Shown piece after piece: positions 1 to 50,361 of a DNA stretch of 50,361 nt. Location: IMG/VR virus record IMGVR_UViG_3300009506_000050, positions 1 to 50,361 of that record; one strand, 5' to 3'. How positions within the stretch are numbered: position 1 is the first letter of the stretch; each line of letters starts with the position of its first letter. The stretch is from a virus. The notes under the pieces were generated by a model that saw only the letters and a list, made by a program, of their open reading frames with translations, was not told the DNA's origin and searched no databases. A program made the position numbers and the translations under genes.

Positions 1-15
1 GTCGCGATTCACAAT
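1..15. repeat. Left copy of 15-bp terminal direct repeat
   Basis: The first 15 bases (GTCGCGATTCACAAT) are identical to the last 15 bases of the window. This means either that the molecule is circular and was cut with a 15-base overlap, or that these are filled-in cohesive ends. The position, in the short gap between terS and the 64-804 gene, is where lambda-like phages carry cos. Confidence 0.9.
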
Positions 16-63: not shown

Positions 64-804
64 TTATTTGAATTTTTTAAGCTGATGATTTATGGAGTCA
101 GCCCATATTTGTAGAATATTTGTTTGTTTTACAAAGGCTTTCCTAGCCTCGGTTAGCCACCTAATGCGCTTGGGAGTGAGCCTATTATCGAAGGATTGAA
201 GTTTCTTTATAACCCCCTGTTTAAAGCGGTATAGACCACGCTTGAAGCGGCCTAAGGGGCGACGCAAAATAAATGTCTGGGCTGTCTTCTTCTCATGTAG
301 GATATGTAGAAATGCGACAATTCTTTTTGCACCACTGAGGCCTTGTAGGCTGAAGCTTCGGCCTTCCTTGGTCTTGAGGCCTTCCGTTTTATTGGGCCCT
401 GGATATTTTGCCTGAGGCTTGAGACGTGCCCATCCCTGTATAGGGGCTTGCATATCTCCGCCTCGAGCCGCTTTTGTAAAGACGCGATTTCGTTTCGCAG
501 GCTTCCCGAGTTCCTGTTCTGCCAGACCTGTATAACGCGGCCTTTCCACTGAGCCTGTTATGGAGATGATTTTATTTATATTGGGGACCGCTTTTGCTTT
601 AATGACTTTGAGGCTTCCATAAATGAAGCCAGGATTTCTGACAGTCATTTTTGAGCCTATGATTTTGATTGCCTCTTTGCGTGTCCCGAAGGCTAGAGCA
701 TTAAGAGTTGCTAATACAGCTTTGGCAAAGAGGTTGGGGGCCTTTTTATAGAACTTGATAAGCCGCTCAAGATCCTTGTCATCCATTTTAAAGATTTCGG
801 CCAT
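64..804 (-). CDS. Putative phage minor tail or tail-completion-like protein (246 aa)
   Basis: A basic 246-residue protein without signal peptide or membrane segment. The pattern of conserved blocks (a GTRKEAIK block near residue 40, TVRNP near 54, TG..EQELG.P..R near 92-104, then RRPLGRFKRGLYRFK near 180) resembles proteins encoded in tail regions of other phages; this is a memory-based family impression, not a database match. On the circular map it ends about 200 bp upstream of the terS start and reads in the same direction. The start is ATG at 804. No Shine-Dalgarno sequence precedes it; an extended -10 element (TGT-TATGAT) ends 5 nt before the ATG, suggesting a leaderless message. It is the only gene at this end and may be expressed separately from the other late genes. 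Confidence 0.6.
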   Translation of the reverse strand: MAEIFKMDDKDLERLIKFYKKAPNLFAKAVLATLNALAFGTRKEAIKIIGSKMTVRNPGFIYGSLKVIKAKAVPNINKIISITGSVERPRYTGLAEQELGKPAKRNRVFTKAARGGDMQAPIQGWARLKPQAKYPGPNKTEGLKTKEGRSFSLQGLSGAKRIVAFLHILHEKKTAQTFILRRPLGRFKRGLYRFKQGVIKKLQSFDNRLTPKRIRWLTEARKAFVKQTNILQIWADSINHQLKKFK

Positions 805-809
805 GATAA

Positions 810-818
810 ATCATAACA
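810..818 (-). promoter_or_regulatory. Extended -10 promoter of the 64-804 gene, leaderless layout
   Basis: On the minus strand TGT-TATGAT is followed by TTATC and then the ATG at 804. No good -35 hexamer is visible at 17-18 nt, but TGn extended -10 promoters can work without one. With only 5 nt between hexamer and ATG, transcription would start at or next to the start codon. Confidence 0.5.
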
Positions 819-3835: not shown

Positions 3836-5137
3836 ATGAATTATGCCACTGTCTGCTCGGGCATCGGGGCCCCAGAGGTCGCATGGAAGGACTTGTGGGG
3901 GCGTCCTGAGTTCGTCTCGGAAATAGAGCCATTCCCCTCCGCGGTCCTCAAGCATCACTATCCGGATGTCCCCAATTATGGGGATATGACCAAATACGAG
4001 GAGTGGCCTGACCATGAACTTGAGCTTATTTGCGGGGGAACCCCCTGCCAGTCCTTCTCAGTCGCCGGACTCAGAAAGGGAATGGATGACCCGCGCGGCA
4101 ACCTTACCCTTGTCTATCTCGGCATCCTTGCCCGATATAATCCCCGCTGGTTCATTTGGGAGAACGTCCCCGGTGTCTTTAGCTCCCGAAGCAATGGAGG
4201 CTCTGACTTCGGACGGTTCCTGTCCGCCCTGGCAGAACTCGGGTATAGTTGCGCCTACCGGGTGCTTGACGCTCAATACTTCGGAGTGCCCCAGCGCCGT
4301 CGTCGAGTCTTCGTTGTCGGACATCTTGGAGCGGACTGGAGACCACCTTACGCGGTACTATTTGAGCCCGAAAGCCTGCGCGGGAATCCTCCGAAGAGCG
4401 GAAAAGCGGGGGAAGGAACTGCCCGAGTTTTTGAAATCAGCCCTGGAGGCGCGGGCGAATGCGAAGTAATACCCACGTTTGACAGCCGATGCAAGGACGG
4501 ACCTATAAGGAATCAGATAGGCGCACTTGTCATGGCCCACGGGCAGGGGAACGCGGAGATATGCAGGGACGGGTCCCCGTCCCTCACCTGTAACCATGAG
4601 GCACCGATAGCTTTCATGGCCGGCCAGGGGGCAAAGGCAGGGAGCATTGCGGCAAGCGATAAGATAAGCCCTACCATTCGCAGTTCTGAAAGCGGCACGA
4701 ACAGAACGCCATGTGTAGCAATCCAGGACGGCAGGGGCATGGAGAAGGGCCAGAACGGTATCGGCATAACCGAGGGAGGGCCTGCATATACCCTTGACCA
4801 GACAGGAGCGCAAGCGGTCGCCTTCCAGCCCAAAGCCTCAGTCAGCCAGAGCATGAACCCATCCGAAACATGCCCCACCATCGGGACAACCAAGGAGCCG
4901 GGCATTATCCATAACACCATCGTCCGCCGCCTCACCCCCATCGAGTGCGAGAGGCTCCAGGGCTTCCCGGACAACTACACCCGCATCCCGTGGAAAAACA
5001 AGCCAGCCGACCTCTGCCCCGACGGCCCCCGATACAAGGCCCTCGGCAACTCCATGGCCGTCCCCGTGCTCCGGTGGATTGGCCAGCGTATCCAGTTATG
5101 GGAAAGCCTTGTAAAATCAGGCAAAATAAAGGCTTGA
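3836..5137 (+). CDS. DNA cytosine-C5 methyltransferase
   Basis: All diagnostic motifs are in order: CSGIGAPE (motif I, residues 7-14), GGTPCQSFS with catalytic C71 (motif IV), ENV at 109-111 (motif VI), QRRRRVF at 153-159 (motif VIII), and GNSMAVPVLRWIG near residue 411 (motif X). The 433-residue protein transfers a methyl group from SAM to cytosine C5; the long stretch between motifs VIII and IX (about residues 165-380) would hold the target recognition domain. It is rich in short G/T/S/P-containing repeats typical of phage members. No endonuclease is adjacent, so it is likely protective. The stop codon lies inside the -35 box of the next promoter. A second ORF is embedded in another frame at 4014-4469. 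Confidence 0.95.
   Translation: MNYATVCSGIGAPEVAWKDLWGRPEFVSEIEPFPSAVLKHHYPDVPNYGDMTKYEEWPDHELELICGGTPCQSFSVAGLRKGMDDPRGNLTLVYLGILARYNPRWFIWENVPGVFSSRSNGGSDFGRFLSALAELGYSCAYRVLDAQYFGVPQRRRRVFVVGHLGADWRPPYAVLFEPESLRGNPPKSGKAGEGTARVFEISPGGAGECEVIPTFDSRCKDGPIRNQIGALVMAHGQGNAEICRDGSPSLTCNHEAPIAFMAGQGAKAGSIAASDKISPTIRSSESGTNRTPCVAIQDGRGMEKGQNGIGITEGGPAYTLDQTGAQAVAFQPKASVSQSMNPSETCPTIGTTKEPGIIHNTIVRRLTPIECERLQGFPDNYTRIPWKNKPADLCPDGPRYKALGNSMAVPVLRWIGQRIQLWESLVKSGKIKA
4014..4469 (+). CDS. ORF overlapping the cytosine methyltransferase in the +1 frame (151 aa)
   Basis: This 151-codon frame lies wholly inside the methyltransferase gene. Unlike a random shadow it has a good ribosome site (GAGGAG at 3998-4003, 10 nt before the ATG) and encodes a C-terminal block (residues about 105-140: SLSDILERTGD, YYLSPKACAGILRRAEKRGKELP) that I recall as recurring in phage hypothetical proteins overlapping or next to C5 methyltransferases. 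That recollection was not checked. It would be made from the early transcript with the methyltransferase. It may instead be a shadow kept open by conservation of the methyltransferase itself. No function is proposed. Confidence 0.45.
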   Translation: MNLSLFAGEPPASPSQSPDSEREWMTRAATLPLSISASLPDIIPAGSFGRTSPVSLAPEAMEALTSDGSCPPWQNSGIVAPTGCLTLNTSECPSAVVESSLSDILERTGDHLTRYYLSPKACAGILRRAEKRGKELPEFLKSALEARANAK

Positions 5138-5163
5138 CAAGATATATATCTTTGTGTTATGAT
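5134..5163 (+). promoter_or_regulatory. Promoter of the ligase-like cassette
   Basis: TTGACA at 5134-5139, 18-nt spacer ending in TGT, and TATGAT at 5158-5163 (5 of 6 consensus, extended -10). The -35 box contains the stop codon of the methyltransferase gene. The spacer (AGATATATAT...) is nearly the same as that of the promoters at 13807 and 45325. Confidence 0.75.
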
Positions 5164-5190
5164 TGAATTAACAGCACAGGGAGGCGATCA

Positions 5191-5736
5191 ATGCTTAAAC
5201 CAATGTTAGTATCAGAGATTCCAGGCCATCGCGGGCGCATTCTCTCGCAGCCCTATGTTTTACTTCAGCCAAAGCTTGACGGCTGGTGCTGCATGGCCAA
5301 TACCCGCACACGCAAGATTTATACCCGCTCCGGCAATGAGATTACCACGCTGCCGCACATCAATGCTGCCCTTCCTAAAGGGGGTCCGGAATGGCTTCAT
5401 GGCGAACTATGGAAGCACGGGGCGACATGCGATACTGTCAGCGAGATGGTAAAAAATGGCGATCCAAGCCTTGAATTCCATGTTTTCGATTGCGTCAGCC
5501 AGGAACCCTATTCCGGGCGCTTGTACCGGATATCAAGCATACCGATGAATGAGACTATCAAAACAGTACCGACCTTTACCTCTGATAGCAACATAACACA
5601 GACCATCCGGGATGCCTATAATGCCTGCTTAGAGCGCGGTTACGAGGGCCTTATCATTCGCCTGGACGGTTACGGCTATGAGCATAAGCGAAGCATCAAT
5701 GTCTTCAAGATGAAGCCCGGCATCGAGGAGGTATAA
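5191..5736 (+). CDS. Minimal ATP-dependent DNA ligase-like nucleotidyltransferase
   Basis: The covalent nucleotidyltransferase motifs are visible: QPKLDGW with the putative adenylated lysine K28 (motif I), TRSGN as the following conserved loop, HGELW (motif III), FHVFD (IIIa), EGLIIRL (motif IV) and FKMKPG (motif V). At 181 residues it consists of the adenylation domain only; the C-terminal OB-fold with motif VI found in even small viral ligases is missing. It may need a partner, or act on a special end. It has its own promoter and GGGAGG ribosome site and is followed 1 nt later by another small gene. Nick sealing after recombination or replication is the likely job. Confidence 0.75.
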   Translation: MLKPMLVSEIPGHRGRILSQPYVLLQPKLDGWCCMANTRTRKIYTRSGNEITTLPHINAALPKGGPEWLHGELWKHGATCDTVSEMVKNGDPSLEFHVFDCVSQEPYSGRLYRISSIPMNETIKTVPTFTSDSNITQTIRDAYNACLERGYEGLIIRLDGYGYEHKRSINVFKMKPGIEEV

Positions 5737-6088: not shown

Positions 6089-6117
6089 TTGACACATTAA
6101 TATAAATATGTTAAGGT
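6089..6117 (+). promoter_or_regulatory. Promoter of the exonuclease/RecT cassette
   Basis: TTGACA at 6089-6094, 17-nt AT-rich spacer ending in TGT (6109-6111), and a weak -10 (TAAGGT, 6112-6117). It is followed by a leader with GGAGG before ATG 6145. The -35 box and TG position match the other members of the promoter family; the -10 is the poorest of them. Confidence 0.6.
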
Positions 6118-6144
6118 ACGCTTAACAAAAACTGGAGGTAATTC

Positions 6145-10401: not shown

Positions 10402-13077
10402 ATGCCAGAGAAAATTGATACCTCTCGTTACAAACCACTGCTTCGTGATTTTCTCATTCGCCGCGGCGTTAAAATAAATGAGAGGAAGCGGCCCAATACC
10501 GCCCAATGCCCTAACCCAAGCCATTCGGATGAAGATCCGAGTGCCATTATTTATCCCGAGAATCTTCATTGTCCCATATGCGCTTTAACATGGGATGTCT
10601 TTGAAGTCGCGGGACTTCTCGACGGATTGACTGATTTCCCTGACAAGCTGAAGGCGGTCCAGGATACACTGGGAATCAGCGAAGTCAAGCCCGCCGGGCC
10701 CGGAGGATCCAAACCTAAGGACTCCAAGAAAGACAAAAAGCCCAAATATGAAGCAGTCGCCCTTGAGCGGGAAAGGGCCCTTCAGGTCTATTCCCCCACC
10801 GCTCTTCTTGAACGCGCAAAAAGCGCGAAATGGCTTGAAGGGGATATCAGGCTTATCAAGGTCTGGCCCTACTACAATGCCGAGGGCCTGATTGATATTC
10901 TGGATGCCCGCTTTGAAAATGAGCACGGCAAAAAAGCAGTCATAACCTTTTATTATGATGGCAAGGTTTTGCGCTCCGCCGGCGCTCCGATTCTGCTTTA
11001 TAACCGGAACCTCATTGAAGCCGATAAGGAATCTCCTGTCCTGATAGTCGAAGGCGCGAAAGCCGCCGAGGCTGCGGCAACAATCCCCGGCTTCATTCCT
11101 GTCACATGGAATGGGGGGGGCAAAAAATGCAAGATGGCCGACTGGACTCCCTTGAAGGAAAGAACAGTCTATATCTGGCCTGATGATGACCAGAAAGTCT
11201 ATGACGAAAAGCATGCCTTGGCTGGCGAACTGAAGCCCGAGCACGAACAGCCGGGCATCAATACAGCCCTGACGATAAAGAATAGGCTTCCGCAAGCTAA
11301 AATCATTCGCCCAATGCCCGAGGCCCGGAGCATCAAGCCTGATGGGGCCGATATCGTGGAAGCCCTGTCGCTTCCGGATATCAGCCCCGAGGCTATCGCC
11401 GAATATATCCTGACAGCCGAAGAGATCAAGACACCTGCAAAGGAAGCCGCCCAATCCTCGAGACCCCCATCAAGCCCACCGTCAAATCCAATCGATACTG
11501 CCCGCGAAGAGCCGGAACCCGAACTCTTCCCTTTCCGAATTCTGGGGGTTGCCGATGACGCAAAGGGATACTTCCTGGACAGGCATGAACGCCTGACATC
11601 GATGTCACTCGGCTCGATAACACAGAATAAGCTTTTAACGCTGGCCCCCCTGACTTTCTGGCAAATTCACTTTGCCACTGGCAAGGGCGGCATTATGGGC
11701 AAGGATGACTGGATAGCGGCAATTGACGCGGTCATTCAGGTAGCAGGGCAAATGGATTTCGACCCTGACAGGATTCGTGGCCGGGGGGCATGGCGCGAGA
11801 GGGATGGCCGAATCTGCTATCACGATGGACTTAATACTCTGGGCGAGACAGGCGAGAATCGCCTGTATTTGCGCATGACCCGCAAGGATATAGGCCTCGG
11901 TAGCCCTTTGCCGGAATTGGAGCGTCTGACGGCCATTCTGGACGTCACAGGACAGCTTTCCTTTGAGACCCGCGCCGACATGATTCGCTGTATCGCATGG
12001 TCCACGCTGGCCCCCTTTGCCGGGGCCCTCCCCTGGCGCCCCGCCGGACTCTTGACGGGCCGCTCAGAATCAGGAAAATCGACAATTGTAGACATGATAA
12101 TCAAGCCCCTTTCACTTCCATTCGTATTCTCTGGCGGCGAAACAACCGAGGCTGGCGTCAGACAGACAATCAAGAATGACGCGACGGCCATCGTCATTGA
12201 GGAAGCGGAAACCGACACACCGAAGAAGCGACAGAGGCGCGACGATATCCTTTCCCTGATGCGCCAGTCCACCTCGGACGAAACCCCGAAGGCCGCAAAG
12301 GGGACCATTGACGGAAAAGGAATGATGTTTACCCTCCGGAGCATGTTCATGTTTGTCGCCATCAGCCCCGAGGTTGAATCTATCGCGGACGATAACCGCC
12401 TCTTCCGGGTAAACCTTGAGAAAAACAATAATGACTGGCCCACGCTGAAAAACAGGCTCGGGGAACTTTTGACGCCGGAGCTTTGTTCGTCCATCCGCGC
12501 CTTTACATGGTCCAGGATGACGGAAATATTTCGGCTAGCGGATATAATGTCTCCCGTAATACAGAAAGTGACGAACAAATCAAACCGCTATGCCCTGGCC
12601 GAAGCCATACTATTCGCGGCCTATCAGATAATCTGGAAGCAGGTCGAATTAAATGAAGATGACCTTTACAGGTTTTTCGAACAAATCTATGACTGGCAAC
12701 CGCCCGAAGAAAGCCGTGACGAAACCGAAGAGCTCCTTGACAGGCTTCTCGATGAAAGCATTCAGGAAGGCAAAGACAGATATACCCTTCGCGAGATCCT
12801 CCAGAAAGCGGACAGAGGGCCGTCAGATCCGGTTTATTTCAAGAGCATCGCGGGCCGTTACGGTCTCGGCCTGACGCCCGATGGCGATCTGGCTATTGCG
12901 AAAAATTTTCATGCCATATCCCGCATCATCGAGCGCGGGCGCGGATACCAGCGCATATTCTGGCGGCACCCCCTGCTTATAGCGAAGGGCCGCTCCGTAG
13001 CCATAGCGGGGAAGGTCCGCAACTGCCTTGTAATCGATAAAAAGATACTGACCGAGTCAGGGGAAGAGGTTTTCTAA
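10402..13077 (+). CDS. Primase-helicase fusion (zinc finger, TOPRIM-like, P-loop ATPase)
   Basis: An 891-residue replication protein. Residues 36-60 form a zinc ribbon (C36, H41, C57, C60) as in DnaG-type primases. VLIVEGAKAAE (E217) and WPDDD (D261-D263) are the two acidic signatures of a TOPRIM-like primase core. A proline/serine-rich linker (about 345-375) leads to the C-terminal ATPase with Walker A GRSESGKST (553-561) and AIVIEEAE as probable Walker B. Such phage proteins prime and unwind at the origin. No DNA polymerase gene is in the window, so synthesis must use the host polymerase. The start has no clear ribosome site. Confidence 0.85.
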   Translation: MPEKIDTSRYKPLLRDFLIRRGVKINERKRPNTAQCPNPSHSDEDPSAIIYPENLHCPICALTWDVFEVAGLLDGLTDFPDKLKAVQDTLGISEVKPAGPGGSKPKDSKKDKKPKYEAVALERERALQVYSPTALLERAKSAKWLEGDIRLIKVWPYYNAEGLIDILDARFENEHGKKAVITFYYDGKVLRSAGAPILLYNRNLIEADKESPVLIVEGAKAAEAAATIPGFIPVTWNGGGKKCKMADWTPLKERTVYIWPDDDQKVYDEKHALAGELKPEHEQPGINTALTIKNRLPQAKIIRPMPEARSIKPDGADIVEALSLPDISPEAIAEYILTAEEIKTPAKEAAQSSRPPSSPPSNPIDTAREEPEPELFPFRILGVADDAKGYFLDRHERLTSMSLGSITQNKLLTLAPLTFWQIHFATGKGGIMGKDDWIAAIDAVIQVAGQMDFDPDRIRGRGAWRERDGRICYHDGLNTLGETGENRLYLRMTRKDIGLGSPLPELERLTAILDVTGQLSFETRADMIRCIAWSTLAPFAGALPWRPAGLLTGRSESGKSTIVDMIIKPLSLPFVFSGGETTEAGVRQTIKNDATAIVIEEAETDTPKKRQRRDDILSLMRQSTSDETPKAAKGTIDGKGMMFTLRSMFMFVAISPEVESIADDNRLFRVNLEKNNNDWPTLKNRLGELLTPELCSSIRAFTWSRMTEIFRLADIMSPVIQKVTNKSNRYALAEAILFAAYQIIWKQVELNEDDLYRFFEQIYDWQPPEESRDETEELLDRLLDESIQEGKDRYTLREILQKADRGPSDPVYFKSIAGRYGLGLTPDGDLAIAKNFHAISRIIERGRGYQRIFWRHPLLIAKGRSVAIAGKVRNCLVIDKKILTESGEEVF

Positions 13078-13806: not shown

Positions 13807-13836
13807 TTGACAAGATATATATTTATATGTTAAGAT
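13807..13836 (+). promoter_or_regulatory. Promoter with leaderless layout for the 13842 cassette
   Basis: TTGACA at 13807-13812, 18-nt spacer (AGATATATATTTATATGT, nearly that of the 5134 promoter) ending in TGT, and TAAGAT at 13831-13836. ATG 13842 follows after just 5 nt (AAATC) with no Shine-Dalgarno sequence, so the message should begin at the start codon. Confidence 0.7.
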
Positions 13837-13841
13837 AAATC

Positions 13842-14042
13842 ATGCCTGAATACTACCAGATAGAATTCGGGAAACTGAATGGAAACTATAAGGTGCTGTA
13901 CAAAACACAGTCCGGCAGGGCCGCATGGCGGGCATTTTATGAAACAGCCATAACCTCCGGCGAGAAAAAGCGCATACGTGTAAAGAAAGGGAGGGCGGGG
14001 CAATGGCGGATCCTGAAAAGAGAAAGGGCATACTGGACATGA
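13842..14042 (+). CDS. Basic protein from a leaderless promoter (66 aa)
   Basis: A 66-residue protein rich in K and R (KKRIRVKKGRAGQWRILKRERAYW at the end), likely to bind nucleic acid. It begins 5 nt downstream of the -10 hexamer without a ribosome site. The stop is overlapped by the next start (ATGA). It leads a long series of small overlapping genes up to the SF2 helicase. No family recognised. Confidence 0.55.
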   Translation: MPEYYQIEFGKLNGNYKVLYKTQSGRAAWRAFYETAITSGEKKRIRVKKGRAGQWRILKRERAYWT

Positions 14043-18618: not shown

Positions 18619-18960
18619 TTATCTTCGAATCACATTAAAATAGCCTCCCATGCGCTCAAGGAGGCTTCCAAACGCCTTTTGTGCCTTGGACAGATCGCCG
18701 GACACCTTGACTTCCATACCCGTGAAAACCGCGACTCTCTGGCCTACCATCTCGGGAGTGATCTCAATGGTGGTCCAGCCGCAGATATCCGGCCATCCGT
18801 CGGGGGCGGCATGCAGCGGGCGGGGAGTCTCAATTACAATCAGGGAAGGTTCACGTCTTAATATCTTGCCGGCCCATCCCATACCGGAATTGATTCTGAA
18901 GAGCCTTTGATCCGGGGGGACAGCGGCAAGTATCTCTCTTATCTTGTCGCCTTCGCGCAT
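18619..18960 (-). CDS. VRR-NUC-type nuclease
   Basis: A 113-residue protein with the compact phage VRR-NUC plan: N-terminal RINSGMGWAGKI, then DGWPDICGW (metal-binding aspartate), VAVFTGMEVKVSGDL (E-x-K catalytic pair) and SKAQKAFGSLLERMGGYFNVIR. The family cuts branched or Holliday-type DNA; here it could resolve recombination or packaging intermediates. It has its own extended -10 element 5 nt before the ATG and no ribosome site. It stands alone between the early region and the late operon, just downstream of the late terminator. Confidence 0.8.
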   Translation of the reverse strand: MREGDKIREILAAVPPDQRLFRINSGMGWAGKILRREPSLIVIETPRPLHAAPDGWPDICGWTTIEITPEMVGQRVAVFTGMEVKVSGDLSKAQKAFGSLLERMGGYFNVIRR

Positions 18961-18965
18961 TTACT

Positions 18966-18974
18966 ATTCTAGCA
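18966..18974 (-). promoter_or_regulatory. Extended -10 promoter of the VRR-NUC gene, leaderless layout
   Basis: On the minus strand TGC-TAGAAT (5 of 6 consensus) is followed by AGTAA and the ATG at 18960. No convincing -35 box is present. The spacing predicts transcription start at the start codon. Confidence 0.5.
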
Positions 18975-19822: not shown

Positions 19823-19836
19823 GCTGTCCTTCCTTT

Positions 19837-20652
19837 CTAGTACCAGATAACATATTTTGTTGAAACATTGATCATGCGCGTTTCGGAAGATGTGCGCGGA
19901 GTGCCGTTAACACCGTCGGTTTTCGGCAACGAGGTTTGTCCCTGCGATGTCGGGCTTATAACAGAAGCGTCCGGGCGGACTGTAGCTGATCCAGGAACCT
20001 CGCTAGTAATAGCGCCATATATCCACATTGTAGTCGCGGTGTAGCCAATTCCATTATAGAACAAGTGCCCCTGGAAGGCGTCATTCTGCACGTCTCCCAG
20101 ATAACGGCTGGCGCCATCGGGGTCCACGCTGGCGGCGGTATCCAGGCCGCGGGGAACATATCCCCGCCTGTCCGGCAGGATAAGGTAAGCCCCGGCTGTG
20201 TTGGGAGTCGTGCCTGCGGCATCATCGGCATGGTAATAAAATCCACCGCCTGCGGCCACGGCTGCATTATTTGCATCCCCCACATAGACAGCGGCGTCAA
20301 GGTCGGGATAGTTTGCCCTCAAAATGCCTTGGCCGGTGAGTAAAAGGCATCTGTGTCCCGTTGTCCCCGGATCGTCTTTCAGATTCCATTCCGTCACTAT
20401 GCCCGGAGGGGCCCCGAATCCTTTCTGAAGGGCTTCTTTTGTCTGGGAAGCCGAGGCGGATTCAACGACTCCGTTGGGCGTAAGCCCGGCATGATCAAGT
20501 ATCATCTGCTGAAACCCGAACATGTAATTATCAATCATTGTCGCGATGAATTCCGTCCCATCCTGTGCTCCCGGGGCCGATACGTCAATTGCCCCCGAAT
20601 CAGGGAAAGCATTACCGTCATAATTGAAAACTGCCGCTATATCAATAGCCAT
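19837..20652 (-). CDS. Tail fibre/collar protein 2 (paralogue of the 20670 gene)
   Basis: A 271-residue fibre-type protein. The middle carries the phage tail collar signature (LPDRRGYVPRGLD, DGASRYLGDVQNDAFQGHLF) and the extreme C-terminus (DGVNGTPRTSSETRMINVSTKYVIWY) matches that of the neighbouring fibre gene. The region between the collar motif and the C-terminus (about residues 190-240) is unrelated to the neighbour, as expected for a receptor-binding tip. GGGAGG lies before the ATG. Both fibres probably attach to the baseplate through the gp48-like protein encoded upstream. Confidence 0.8.
   Translation of the reverse strand: MAIDIAAVFNYDGNAFPDSGAIDVSAPGAQDGTEFIATMIDNYMFGFQQMILDHAGLTPNGVVESASASQTKEALQKGFGAPPGIVTEWNLKDDPGTTGHRCLLLTGQGILRANYPDLDAAVYVGDANNAAVAAGGGFYYHADDAAGTTPNTAGAYLILPDRRGYVPRGLDTAASVDPDGASRYLGDVQNDAFQGHLFYNGIGYTATTMWIYGAITSEVPGSATVRPDASVISPTSQGQTSLPKTDGVNGTPRTSSETRMINVSTKYVIWY
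19868..19920. repeat. 53-bp exact direct repeat, copy 1 (fibre 3-prime end)
   Basis: These 53 bases, encoding the C-terminal end of the second fibre protein, are identical to 20701-20753 in the first fibre gene. The repeat flanks the variable tip segment and could support recombination between the two genes. Confidence 0.9.
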
Positions 20653-20669
20653 GCCTTATTCTTGCCTCC

Positions 20670-21461
20670 CTAGTATAAGATAACCCATTTTGTGGCTATG
20701 TTGATCATGCGCGTTTCGGAAGATGTGCGCGGAGTGCCGTTAACACCGTCGGTAACTGGCGATGTGGTCTCAACCCTTGGATCTGTTTTTGTGCCTCCCC
20801 ACGTCATGTCATTACCATTTGCGCTTGCCCCGGTTGCATTCGTATCAACCGCTATCTGGTCTGTCCCCTGAGTCGTCTGTATATTATGCCAGTGTCCCTG
20901 AAGGGCGTCATTCTGTATGCTTCCGACATCCCGGCTTGCGCCGTCTGGGTCCACGCTGGCGGCGGTATCCAGGCCGCGGGGGACATATCCCCGCCTGTCC
21001 GGAAGGATAAGATAAGCCCCGGCGGTATTGCGGCTCGTGCCTGCGGCATCGTCGGCATGGTAATATGCGCTAGCGGTAGGGTTTGCGGAGTCCCCCACAT
21101 AGACAGCGGCGTCAAGGTCGGGATAGTTCGCCCTCAAAATGCCTTGGCCATTCAGCAGAAGACGTCTCCGGCCCACCGTTGCGGGGTCGTCGGCTAGGTT
21201 CCATTCCACTATCTCGCCCGGGCCTATGAAGCCCTTTTGTATGGCTTCGAGCCTCTGCGATGCTCCGGCGGCCTCTGTAACGCCATCCGGCGTAAGTCCG
21301 GCATAATCCATGAGGGCCTGGTTAAATCCCCATAGATCGTCAATAAATGCCTTGACGAATTCCGTCCCGTCCTGAGTGGTGGGCGTCGTCGAATTTATCC
21401 CCTTGGTATTGGGAAAAGCCGCCCCATCAGTATAAACAAAGGTTGTAAAATAATTAACCAT
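20670..21461 (-). CDS. Tail fibre/collar protein 1
   Basis: A 263-residue paralogue of the next fibre. Shared blocks are NGQGILRANYPDLDAAVYVGD, the collar motif LPDRRGYVPRGLD followed by DGASRDVGSIQNDALQGHWH, and the C-terminal DGVNGTPRTSSETRMIN. The tip between them (about 200-245) is different and rich in T, N and G. Start 21461 has GGAGGG upstream; an earlier in-frame ATG overlaps the previous gene. It is preceded by the gp48-like baseplate protein. The pair gives the virion two tips of different sequence. Confidence 0.8.
   Translation of the reverse strand: MVNYFTTFVYTDGAAFPNTKGINSTTPTTQDGTEFVKAFIDDLWGFNQALMDYAGLTPDGVTEAAGASQRLEAIQKGFIGPGEIVEWNLADDPATVGRRRLLLNGQGILRANYPDLDAAVYVGDSANPTASAYYHADDAAGTSRNTAGAYLILPDRRGYVPRGLDTAASVDPDGASRDVGSIQNDALQGHWHNIQTTQGTDQIAVDTNATGASANGNDMTWGGTKTDPRVETTSPVTDGVNGTPRTSSETRMINIATKWVILY
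20701..20753. repeat. 53-bp exact direct repeat, copy 2
   Basis: Identical to 19868-19920. Further long near-identical stretches lie between 20083-20340 and 20917-21160, so the two fibre genes are recent tandem duplicates apart from their tips. Confidence 0.9.
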
Positions 21462-43182: not shown

Positions 43183-44925
43183 TTATGTATCCTCCCTGCG
43201 GATTTCTATTTCGTCCACAACAGCTTCGGCCAGGGCCTGAGCGCTTCCACCACCAGCACCTCCACCGCCTGATTTTTGCCAGGGCGGCGGCACGGGTTCG
43301 CCATACTCATGCTCTAGCTGTGTCCTGTTAGTTTCGGCATCGCTGCCGTTAAGATCGCTCGCCTCGCGCTCCTGAGTAGTAAGGCCGAGGCTGAGATTTT
43401 CTCTCCGGGCCTTGGCCGTCTTTATCGGATCTATATCAGGCATTGCCGCGCCCTTCCAGTTGCCATGCAGCCATGCGGCCCTGAGGACCGGGTCGGACCA
43501 TCCGGGGGCCTGTATGCGTCCGGCGGCTATCTCGCCGGAAAGCCACATTTCAAAAACCGGGTCGCCGTCATCAGCCGCCCATTCGGCCCGCCAGATATTC
43601 ACTATTCTCCAGAAGAGAATGAGAGTGCCGCGACTCGCGGAATAATTCTGATTGAAACGCATCAGGACAACCTCAAGAGGCACACCGGCGGCGGCCCCGA
43701 GGTAATACATGAAGGCGTCCACAAATTTGTCGAAGGAATCAACAGGCGCATTGGGCTGGAAGGGCTTGATAACGTCGCCCTGGCCGGCATTCAGTATCGC
43801 ATGGCTACCGGGCTGATCAGAAGTAATCTCGGGCACCTGATAGCATCTAACAGGCTCTACCGCTACATTCTGGGCCGTGCTGTCCGGCTCCGGATTGGTA
43901 CCAAATTGCCCCGCGGCGGCGCCCTGCCCAAAAGCGGTTAATTGTCCCGCGAAAATATTCGAAGGGTCGAATTCCCTGTTCTCGACCGACATGAAGATCA
44001 TGGACTGGTTGATTGCCTTTTTCAGATGCGCCATTTTGAAATCTGTTATGTTCTCGAGCGACTGAAGGGCAAAACCTATGCGGGAATAGCCTCGGCCCTG
44101 GCCGGCATATTCAGGCCTGAATCCATGGAGCATGAAGAGGCGTCCGGACTTGGGGCCCTTGCGCTGTACTGTGACAGTCTTGAAACCGCCGTTGCCGTCC
44201 CTGACATAGACAACATAACCGGTTTCCCTGTTACGCTCGTCGCGGATAATACCGTCATAGATATTTTCCATATACTCGCCATAAGTCCCGCTCAAGCCGA
44301 GCCCGACTATCTGGTCCGGGTCCACGAAATCCCATTGGAGCGGATTTTGAAGGAATTTTTCAGTGGAGTAATAAAGGCGGCGAAAAATGTCATTGTCCCT
44401 ATGCTGAAAAATCTGATAAAGATGCTGTGACTGATAGAACGTCATGTTCTCGGCGCGATGCGTTTTCTTGTCCCTGGCCCAGAGATCGAAACGGGTATCT
44501 ACATCACGGCCCCATTCGCGGGCCCTCTCTGACGTTATTCCAAGTATGGAAGCCCTCGGGCTTGATTCCCTGACAAGGGCAACGTCCGCCACGCTATCCG
44601 CAGTGCGGTCGATAATGGCCCGGGCCTGAGGGCTGTCATGATAGGCATCACGCGCATTGGTGCGCATGCGTTGATGATTAATGACTCTGGACTTTCCATA
44701 ATTCGAAAGCCCATAAGGCCATCCGGCGCCCCCGCTTCGGTATCCCTCGTAATATGAACCGCCCCCGCCATGATATGCGACTGGGCGAGACCCGCGGCTC
44801 ATAATGTCCAGTTGATGAAGGGTTGCTTTCATGGTAGCATCCCTGATTTCCTTGTTTCGGTCAAGGATTGCATTCGCGAAATCTCGAGCGAATATTTCAG
44901 AACGTGATGGTCGATTCCCTGCCAT
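43183..44925 (-). CDS. Portal protein (lambda gpB-type)
   Basis: A 580-residue lambda-type portal. Visible are the helical N-terminus, ARDAYHDSPQARAIIDRTADSVADVALV, LWARDKKTHRAENMTFYQSQHLYQIFQHRD, the wing region YVVYVRDGNGGFKTVTV, MLHGFRPEYAGQGRGYSRIG and the C-terminal SFDKFVDAFMYYLGAAAGVPLEVVLMRFNQNYSASRGTL. It forms the dodecameric ring through which TerL packages DNA. The start overlaps the 45203 gene stop (TAATG). A 60-aa protein elsewhere (5738) resembles the DKFVDA segment. Confidence 0.9.
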   Translation of the reverse strand: MAGNRPSRSEIFARDFANAILDRNKEIRDATMKATLHQLDIMSRGSRPVAYHGGGGSYYEGYRSGGAGWPYGLSNYGKSRVINHQRMRTNARDAYHDSPQARAIIDRTADSVADVALVRESSPRASILGITSERAREWGRDVDTRFDLWARDKKTHRAENMTFYQSQHLYQIFQHRDNDIFRRLYYSTEKFLQNPLQWDFVDPDQIVGLGLSGTYGEYMENIYDGIIRDERNRETGYVVYVRDGNGGFKTVTVQRKGPKSGRLFMLHGFRPEYAGQGRGYSRIGFALQSLENITDFKMAHLKKAINQSMIFMSVENREFDPSNIFAGQLTAFGQGAAAGQFGTNPEPDSTAQNVAVEPVRCYQVPEITSDQPGSHAILNAGQGDVIKPFQPNAPVDSFDKFVDAFMYYLGAAAGVPLEVVLMRFNQNYSASRGTLILFWRIVNIWRAEWAADDGDPVFEMWLSGEIAAGRIQAPGWSDPVLRAAWLHGNWKGAAMPDIDPIKTAKARRENLSLGLTTQEREASDLNGSDAETNRTQLEHEYGEPVPPPWQKSGGGGAGGGSAQALAEAVVDEIEIRREDT

Positions 44926-45203
44926 TAATCATTTTTCCTTCGAAGAGTCATATTCGCGATTCCGGTTCCATTGAGGATATGCTGGTATCTGAGAATGCGG
45001 GCTTCGAGGCGTTTCTGTACCTTTTCCATGGCTTCCATGCTCCGGTACTTCATGACCTGTTTTCCCTCTCCTGTATCAAGGCTTGCCATTTCTACATGAA
45101 GGGTATTGTTTATGATAGCGTCATCAATGGCGTCCAGTTGGGCTTGAAGGGCGGTTATCCGTTCCTGATACCAGGCCTTTTGTGTGGAGGTCAGGCAACT
45201 CAT
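44925..45203 (-). CDS. Small helical protein upstream of the portal (gpW-like position, 92 aa)
   Basis: A 92-residue helical protein (TSTQKAWYQERITALQAQLDAIDDAI, YRSMEAMEKVQKRLEARILRYQHILNGTGIANMTLRRK) in the place of the gpW/head-tail joining gene between TerL and portal. The ATG at 45203 lies 6 nt after the -10 box (TATTAT) and has no ribosome site, so the late message should be leaderless. An in-frame TTG at 45239 would coincide with the -35 box and is unlikely. Confidence 0.65.
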   Translation of the reverse strand: MSCLTSTQKAWYQERITALQAQLDAIDDAIINNTLHVEMASLDTGEGKQVMKYRSMEAMEKVQKRLEARILRYQHILNGTGIANMTLRRKND

Positions 45204-45209
45204 GCTGTG

Positions 45210-45239
45210 ATAATAAAGAAAAAATTTGTCCTTTGTCAA
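45210..45239 (-). promoter_or_regulatory. Late promoter of the portal operon, leaderless layout
   Basis: TTGACA (45239-45234), 18 nt, TATTAT (45215-45210), then CACAGC and ATG 45203. Both hexamers are near consensus. With 6 nt between -10 and ATG, transcription starts at the A of the start codon. It drives the large late operon toward 19052. It is back to back with the plus promoter at 45325. Confidence 0.75.
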
Positions 45240-45324: not shown

Positions 45325-45354
45325 TTGACAAGGGATATATTTCTGTGTTATTAT
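45325..45354 (+). promoter_or_regulatory. Promoter of the plus-strand accessory island
   Basis: TTGACA at 45325-45330, 18-nt spacer with the ATATATTTCTGTG pattern ending in TGT, and TATTAT at 45349-45354 (5 of 6). The spacer resembles those at 5134 and 13807. The AT-rich 85 nt between it and the divergent late promoter contain T-rich direct repeats (TTGATTTTATTGATTATTTT) that may bind a regulator. Confidence 0.7.
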
Positions 45355-45969: not shown

Positions 45970-46377
45970 ATGAGAGAGAAAAAGTATGAATTAACCGATG
46001 AGGTAAAAAGTTTCGGCAACATAACACTTTATCGAATCAGAGCGCTTCGGGATTTCATGAACATCAAAAAAGGAGAAGTTGGAGGATTCATCGAAAAAGA
46101 ATCCAATCTAAGCCACTCCGGGGATGCTTGGGTCTACGGGAATGCCGAGGTCTACGGGGATGCCAAGGTCTAAGGGGATGCCAAGGTCTACGGGAATGCC
46201 ATAAATATTATCGGATATGAGTACCGGATCACTCTTACAGATAATCACATGGCAATTGGCTGTGAAATGCATACCTTCACTGAATGGCGGAAGTCGTATA
46301 AGGCTATATGCAGGAAGCATAATAAGAAAGAATGGGAATCAAGAATACTGGCCATTCTTGATATGGCGGGAAAGTGA
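45970..46377 (+). pseudogene. Polymer-forming/repeat-type phage protein interrupted by an in-frame TAA
   Basis: The frame from 45970 encodes an N-terminal part (YELTDEVKSFGNITLYRIRALRDF, KKGEVGGFIEKESNLSHSGDAWVYGNAEVYGDAKV) and stops at TAA 46171-46173. Reading on in the same frame gives GDAKVYGNA and then a coherent C-terminal domain (ITLTDNHMAIGCEMHTFTEW ... RILAILDMAGK) ending at 46377. The stop sits where the repeat expects TAC (Tyr), so one base change separates intact from broken. It is either a pseudogene, a read-through product, or a polymorphism in the sampled population. The family is a phage protein with YGNA-type beta-helix repeats. Confidence 0.6.
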
Positions 46378-49597: not shown

Positions 49598-50275
49598 TTA
49601 AGCCGCTTTTTCCGTCGGGGCAATCTTCTCAGCCCCAAGCTTTATCAGGAATGAATTTTGTTCGCGCTTAATGAGGTTCAATACTCCCATGACTTCCTTG
49701 TCTATGAGATCACATATGCTTCGGACCTTTTCATCTTCATCAATGCCCAGGACCGCAGCGACGTCACTGCTTATTTTCAGGCCTAGCGTCTTCCATTGTC
49801 CATTATCGATCTCATGTATGCCATGGATAAACTTCTGGACCAGAGTTCTTTCAATGAGTTCGCCGCGCTTCTTCTGGTTATCGAGCCTTACTTTATTGAG
49901 CTCTTCCTGCAACTTCTCATTTTTCAGGGAGGTGAATTGCAAAAACTCCTGAAGATCTTCTTCATTTGAGGGAAGGCCCCGGCGTCCATTTTCCTCTGGC
50001 GGTTCCTTATCCTTAGGTTTGGGCGAAGGTTCGGCTTTCTTTTTCTCGGCAGGTTTGCCTTGCGGGCGAGAAAGGGGAGGACCCAGGGCCTTGCCTGGAG
50101 TCGAAGGGGTCCGCAACCAGGCGAGAGTAAGGGGATGATTCAAATCTATCCTGGCCGCCCTGCCCGACCCCTCGACCGGAAGGCGCCCTTCGGATATCGC
50201 CTTCTTGACGGCCTGACGCGTAACTCCTTTTTTTCTCGCTAGTTCTGACTGGTTGACGAGTTTCCGCTCTGGCAT
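49598..50275 (-). CDS. terS: Terminase small subunit (Nu1-like)
   Basis: A 225-residue DNA-binding subunit. Residues about 6-35 (LVNQSELARKKGVTRQAVKKAISEGRLP) form a winged helix-turn-helix as in lambda Nu1. A proline- and charge-rich linker (about 60-110) leads to a helical C-terminal part (LQFTSLKNEKLQEELNKVRLDNQKKRGELIERTLVQKF) that contacts TerL. It recognises the packaging site, expected next to it. The ATG lies 5 nt after a consensus -10 box and lacks a ribosome site, so the message should be leaderless. Confidence 0.85.
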   Translation of the reverse strand: MPERKLVNQSELARKKGVTRQAVKKAISEGRLPVEGSGRAARIDLNHPLTLAWLRTPSTPGKALGPPLSRPQGKPAEKKKAEPSPKPKDKEPPEENGRRGLPSNEEDLQEFLQFTSLKNEKLQEELNKVRLDNQKKRGELIERTLVQKFIHGIHEIDNGQWKTLGLKISSDVAAVLGIDEDEKVRSICDLIDKEVMGVLNLIKREQNSFLIKLGAEKIAPTEKAA

Positions 50276-50280
50276 GCTTA

Positions 50281-50309
50281 ATTGTAAACCAAGGCCCTGG
50301 CTTTGTCAA
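50281..50309 (-). promoter_or_regulatory. Terminase promoter, leaderless layout
   Basis: On the minus strand TTGACA (50309-50304), exactly 17 nt, TACAAT (50286-50281), then TAAGC and ATG 50275. This is the best consensus promoter in the window. The -35 box is one half of a 20-bp palindrome, so a bound protein could switch it. Confidence 0.8.
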
Positions 50310-50321
50310 CCGGTTGACAAA
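50302..50321. promoter_or_regulatory. 20-bp perfect palindrome at the terminase promoter
   Basis: TTTGTCAACCGGTTGACAAA is fully palindromic and covers the -35 box of the terS promoter. It is a good operator candidate for a dimeric regulator, or a TerS binding site, since it lies only 27 nt upstream of the terS start and 25 nt from the terminal repeat. Confidence 0.6.
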
Positions 50322-50346: not shown

Positions 50347-50361
50347 GTCGCGATTCACAAT
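50347..50361. repeat. Right copy of 15-bp terminal direct repeat
   Basis: Same 15 bases as 1-15. Together they place the physical or assembly end of the molecule between terS and the 64-804 gene. Confidence 0.9.

Follow-up and report, generated by a model that had tools for sequence, protein, structure and literature searches.

Five genes of an uncultured tailed phage, represented by the virus record IMGVR_UViG_3300009506_000050 (50,361 bases, analysed here over its whole length and called the window below), are very probably transcribed from sigma70-type promoters that would give leaderless mRNAs at the heads of operons, with translation starting on a 5'-terminal AUG and using no Shine-Dalgarno (SD) sequence. 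An earlier note on this DNA had pointed to five genes with a -10 hexamer 5 or 6 nt before the ATG and no SD sequence, and all five arrangements can be read directly from the sequence at the places it gave. Its leaderless interpretation is supported by comparison with the upstream regions of related phages: the comparison it had proposed, which asks whether the -10 is kept there and the SD sequence missing, bears out the reading for the head-tail adaptor-like gene, the gene for the terminase small subunit (terS) and the tail-like gene at 64-804, and partly for the VRR-NUC gene. Promoter position and lack of an SD sequence are thus both conserved across divergent phages. Because the genes sit directly on their promoters, their mRNAs almost certainly begin at the AUG.

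The first and last 15 nt of the window (1-15 and 50347-50361) are identical (gtcgcgattcacaat), which is consistent with the assembly of a circular or end-repeated genome. Two other repeats were observed. At 46116-46205 an 18-nt repeat occurs four times in tandem; its copies encode YGNAEV/YGDAKV-like units, and a TAA at 46171-46173 is in frame. The repeat has DNA matches at 8 places in Aeromonas phage PS and also in Acidovorax phage AP1. At 19827-21207, a tandem duplication has left two adjoining genes with three direct repeat blocks in common, which are 80-87% identical and lie about 820 nt apart.

For the survey of the window we picked 62 genes by hand from the ORF list and counted an SD sequence when at least 4 nt of it lay 4-13 nt before the start. 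By this measure 45 of the 62 genes have an SD sequence and none of the five candidates does. Promoters matching the consensus in at least 10 of 12 bases, with a gap of 5-6 nt to the ATG, precede three genes (13842, 45203 and 50275), against a mean of 0.036 and a maximum of 1 in 500 dinucleotide shuffles; an extended -10 at the same gap precedes two more (64-804 and 18960; shuffle mean 0.026). In the same test, gaps outside 4-7 nt gave 0 or 1 match per two-base bin. All five candidates have a -10 of the form TANNNT ending approximately 5-7 nt before the start codon. The primase gene at 10402 (TATAAA, N5), which the earlier note had offered as a weaker sixth case, scores as no promoter; it has no -35, its -10 does not fit TANNNT, and it was dropped from the leaderless set.

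The most extensive comparison is available for the head-tail adaptor-like gene (44925-45203, minus strand, 92 aa), which lies just upstream of the portal gene, has no SD sequence and matches phrog_2545 (head-tail adaptor Ad1) weakly. Its promoter (45210-45239, minus strand) consists of the -35 TTGACA at 45239-45234, an 18-nt spacer and the -10 TATTAT at 45215-45210, followed by 6 nt and the ATG. The mechanical ORF call opens at a TTG at 45239, which is the TTG of the -35 hexamer itself; judged by homology, the true start is the ATG. In the first relative (L007, 63% identical) the arrangement reads TTGACA-N18-TATTTT-N5-ATG, and in L016, with 47% portal identity, it reads TTGACA-N18-TATAGT-N5-ATG in an upstream region that is otherwise little alike. 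A portal profile identified 67 viral loci, several of them fragments, and an adaptor profile found 63 homologs within these portal-bearing loci; after removal of near-duplicates 53 remained, with a median pairwise protein identity of 34%. Ortholog starts were fixed by the protein profile and not by the promoter. TTGACA (at least 5 of 6 bases) occurs 27-32 nt before the conserved ATG in 42 of these 53 non-redundant orthologs, while the same upstream sequences, when shuffled, gave it in register in 1.9 on average and 8 at most. The distances cluster at 28-32 nt with a mode of 29, as expected of a -35 when the transcript begins at the A of the ATG or next to it. The base at -1 in the 42 orthologs with a -35 is C in 22, T in 19 and A in one, with -2 and -3 mixed; a pyrimidine at -1 is the usual context of a start site and would fit initiation on the A of the ATG.

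It could be argued that translation of these genes uses longer mRNAs reading in from upstream DNA, that the missing SD sequence merely reflects weak or coupled translation and that the promoters near the ATG are chance matches in AT-rich DNA, and several SD-less genes of the window do sit inside operons. We consider this very improbable, given the fixed spacing from -35 to ATG, the pyrimidine in 41 of 42 orthologs and the position of many adaptor genes hundreds of bases from the terL stop, across intervening sequence that is unrelated or divergent. The -35 in register is absent from 11 of the 53 orthologs, and in three loci where the adaptor gene directly follows terL (L015, L036 and L053) it carries an SD sequence instead. 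Whether -35 and SD exclude each other among the adaptor orthologs was examined by a Fisher test, with a result that is only borderline (p = 0.054), because few of these orthologs have any SD sequence. As a control we used the portal starts of the same phages, a small set, in which 11 of 15 have an SD sequence and none of 15 has TTGACA in register; the choice of start for TerL is uncertain. In the adaptor upstream regions of six loci (L065, L074, L076, L077, L080 and L081) a TTATGTC-like string, shifted relative to a normal -10, is conserved between the -35 and the ATG.

The terS gene (49598-50275, minus strand, 225 aa; phrog_57, E 2.8e-13) lies upstream of the gene for TerL (Pfam GpA_ATPase and GpA_nuclease) and likewise has no SD sequence. 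Its promoter (50281-50309, minus strand) matches the consensus in 11 of 12 bases, with TTGACA at 50309-50304, a 17-nt spacer and TACAAT at 50286-50281, 5 nt before the ATG. A -35 lies 26-33 nt before the start in 17 of 27 non-redundant TerS orthologs, none of these 17 with an SD sequence, and is absent from register in the other 10; TerS of the window and of L016 are only 25% identical. The terS -35 is covered by a perfect 18-bp palindrome, TTGTCAACCGGTTGACAA (50303-50320), which is identical at terS of L037 and similar at terS of L016 and L039. Since the -35 lies inside this recurring element, we propose that the terS promoter may be subject to repression, with the palindrome as a putative operator for some regulator. 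This raises the question whether the conserved TTGACA could be mainly a regulator's operator, with the genes translated from a short SD-less leader by some other SD-independent initiation. The palindrome over the terS -35 in several phages speaks in favor of this, but at the adaptor promoters, which keep TTGACA at promoter distance, a search for palindromes gave no second arm, and we regard such an explanation as highly unlikely.

A further possibility is that the promoters are genuine and serve an SD-led start farther downstream, in the same ORF or in the next gene, so that the annotated ATG is not used. The N-termini of the 13842 and VRR-NUC products, which are little constrained by comparison, would allow it. 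In contrast, the N-termini of the adaptor orthologs recur as M-[SGA]-[CY]-[LI] exactly at the ATG, and a helix-turn-helix-like segment of TerS begins within a few residues of its ATG, which leaves this alternative with very little chance of being correct.

The leaderless reading extends to the gene for a minor-tail-protein-like product (64-804, minus strand, 246 aa; phrog_4688, E 7e-12), which is the first of a leftward unit and adjoins terS on the circle. It is preceded by a -10 with a TG extension (TGT-TATGAT, hexamer at 810-815, minus strand), 5 nt before the ATG at 804 and with no clear -35. A single-sequence scan returned no relatives, while a profile built from the window and the L016 contig returned 16 matching records. 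A pyrimidine precedes the ATG in 13 of the 15 orthologs that start with ATG; an SD sequence of at least 5 nt is present in none of the 15, and most of them keep a -35 or -10 in register. The VRR-NUC-type nuclease gene (18619-18960, minus strand, 113 aa) has a similar element, TGC-TAGAAT (hexamer at 18966-18971, minus strand), 5 nt before the ATG at 18960 and again with no clear -35. Its product matches phrog_93 (endonuclease, E 1.1e-5) and has no match in Pfam; the name VRR-NUC is that of the earlier note. The only clear match among its orthologs is that of L026 (64% identical), with TGT-TATAAT-N5-ATG and no SD sequence; L100 and L101 look similar, and L097-L099 do not.

The fifth candidate is a short gene on the plus strand (13842-14042, 66 aa) with no Pfam or PHROG match and no SD sequence, whose promoter (13807-13836, plus strand) is TTGACA-N18-TAAGAT with a TG extension, 5 nt before the ATG at 13842. 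A single-sequence scan of viral contigs found no relatives, so the argument for this gene comes from its own sequence only. Similar promoters, with TTGACA, an AT-rich spacer and TGTTA, were noticed at 5134-5163, 6089-6120, 13807-13836 and 45325-45354, those at 5134 and 13807 belonging to the D6 repeat family. Promoters of this type serve SD-led genes at three places and the leaderless gene at 13807; at 5134-5193 (plus strand), for instance, a leader containing GGAGG separates TTGACA-N18-TATGAT from the ATG at 5191.

The same contrast appears when the related loci are scanned for promoters first. Requiring an exact TTGACA and a -10 with at least 4 of 6 bases gave 117 distinct promoters, for which we counted only ATGs of ORFs of at least 60 aa and SD sequences of at least 5 nt. 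No SD sequence accompanies any of the 34 promoters located 4-8 nt before an ATG, whereas one is present for 14 of the 25 located 15-60 nt before it. Therefore, these phages appear to use two modes of initiation, which can be told apart by the position of the promoter.

The architecture does not seem to reach beyond the nearer clade, since the cultured phages Taranis, HFM1, XM1, RcMeacham and a Vibrio phage, which share approximately 25-30% identity in portal or TerL, have no TTGACA in register before their gpW-like gene, and several of them have SD-like sequences there. In a search for hosts, the portal profile matched a single short contig (L096), which belongs to a Desulfuromonadales MAG, and nothing further in 395 genomes of the phylum of that MAG, and a TerL scan of genome contigs gave no match; a Desulfuromonadales host is therefore a lead only. 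Among 31 genomes (the L096 MAG and its relatives), TTGACA-N16-18-TANNNT before an ATG occurs approximately 129 times at N5-6 versus 107 at N13-14, i.e. with no strong enrichment at the shorter distance. If the host is a delta-proteobacterium, it is relevant that leaderless genes were reported in 8 of 33 delta-proteobacterial genomes, at a mean of 15.8% (PMC3160421).

As to the mechanism, we envisage that the sigma70 holoenzyme would read TTGACA and/or the extended -10 and that RNA polymerase would start on the first base of the start codon or at most two nucleotides away from it. Recognition of a 5'-terminal AUG on leaderless mRNA is chiefly a function of 70S ribosomes, and the messages predicted here would be translated by that route, independently of an SD sequence. 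In E. coli, leaderless translation proceeds mainly by the 70S route and is sensitive to the levels of IF3 and initiator tRNA (PMC9031893). The leaderless heads would belong to the TerS-TerL, adaptor-portal-capsid, tail-protein, nuclease and small-gene units, the downstream genes of which mostly have SD-led starts. The positions of the 5' ends, translation by 70S ribosomes and any role in regulation are inferences.

The leaderless principle itself is already known. The cI mRNA of lambda is leaderless, as are the RACE-mapped cI and cro mRNAs of the telomere phage PY54 (PMC4488713). These resemble the predicted messages in starting at the AUG, with a promoter immediately upstream and no SD sequence, but they encode regulators of the lysis-lysogeny switch, whereas the genes described here, conserved across a clade at several operon heads, encode packaging, connector and tail-like proteins and a nuclease. 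The earlier note had called leaderless starts in the early, packaging and late units of one phage unusual; unusual they are, but not unprecedented, because according to a review (PMC3594737, its references 155 and 156) most middle and late transcripts of Thermus phage phiYS40 are leaderless. The likeness lies in middle or late phage genes on leaderless mRNAs, predicted in our case, and the difference in a phiYS40 host phylum that is rich in leaderless genes, while here leaderless heads with a near-consensus TTGACA -35 are mixed with SD-led genes; with an SD sequence at 45 of 62 genes, the window does not follow a phiYS40-type programme. Two cellular parallels share the lack of an SD sequence and a -10 separated from the start codon by a few bases: the bacterial TA-led leaderless genes, in which TANNNT lies approximately 10-12 nt ahead of the start (PMC3160421), and, in Deinococcus-Thermus, the ORF-adjacent -10 motif (PMC12340547). 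Our cases are viral and often have a strong -35 as well. In the literature searched, mostly outside subscription journals, we found no description of leaderless packaging or adaptor genes in phages. What is new is the deep conservation of the arrangement at packaging, connector and tail genes of an uncultured clade.

Until now, leaderless phage mRNA has been known mostly from a single Thermus phage and a handful of repressor genes, and the comparison of dozens of uncultured phages reveals what appears to be a conserved design with fixed positions at packaging and structural genes. With this architecture as a guide, start codons and transcription start sites could be predicted in such phages, in which ORF callers can misplace starts, as the mechanical call for the 45203 gene illustrates. 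We tentatively suggest, as a possibility on which we would not insist, that in a large clade of uncultured tailed phages leaderless initiation has become fixed as an expression class reserved for the genes that open virion-building operons (those for TerS, the head-tail adaptor and the tail protein), with the signals for start site and start codon fused in one element that is kept even at approximately 34% protein identity. Such a class would permit escape from competition for SD-dependent initiation, or a response as initiation factors or the supply of free 70S ribosomes change in the course of infection; the functional purpose of the leaderless operon heads is a conjecture. These phages may be a natural setting in which to study what leads a virus to make part of its proteins independently of the SD pathway.
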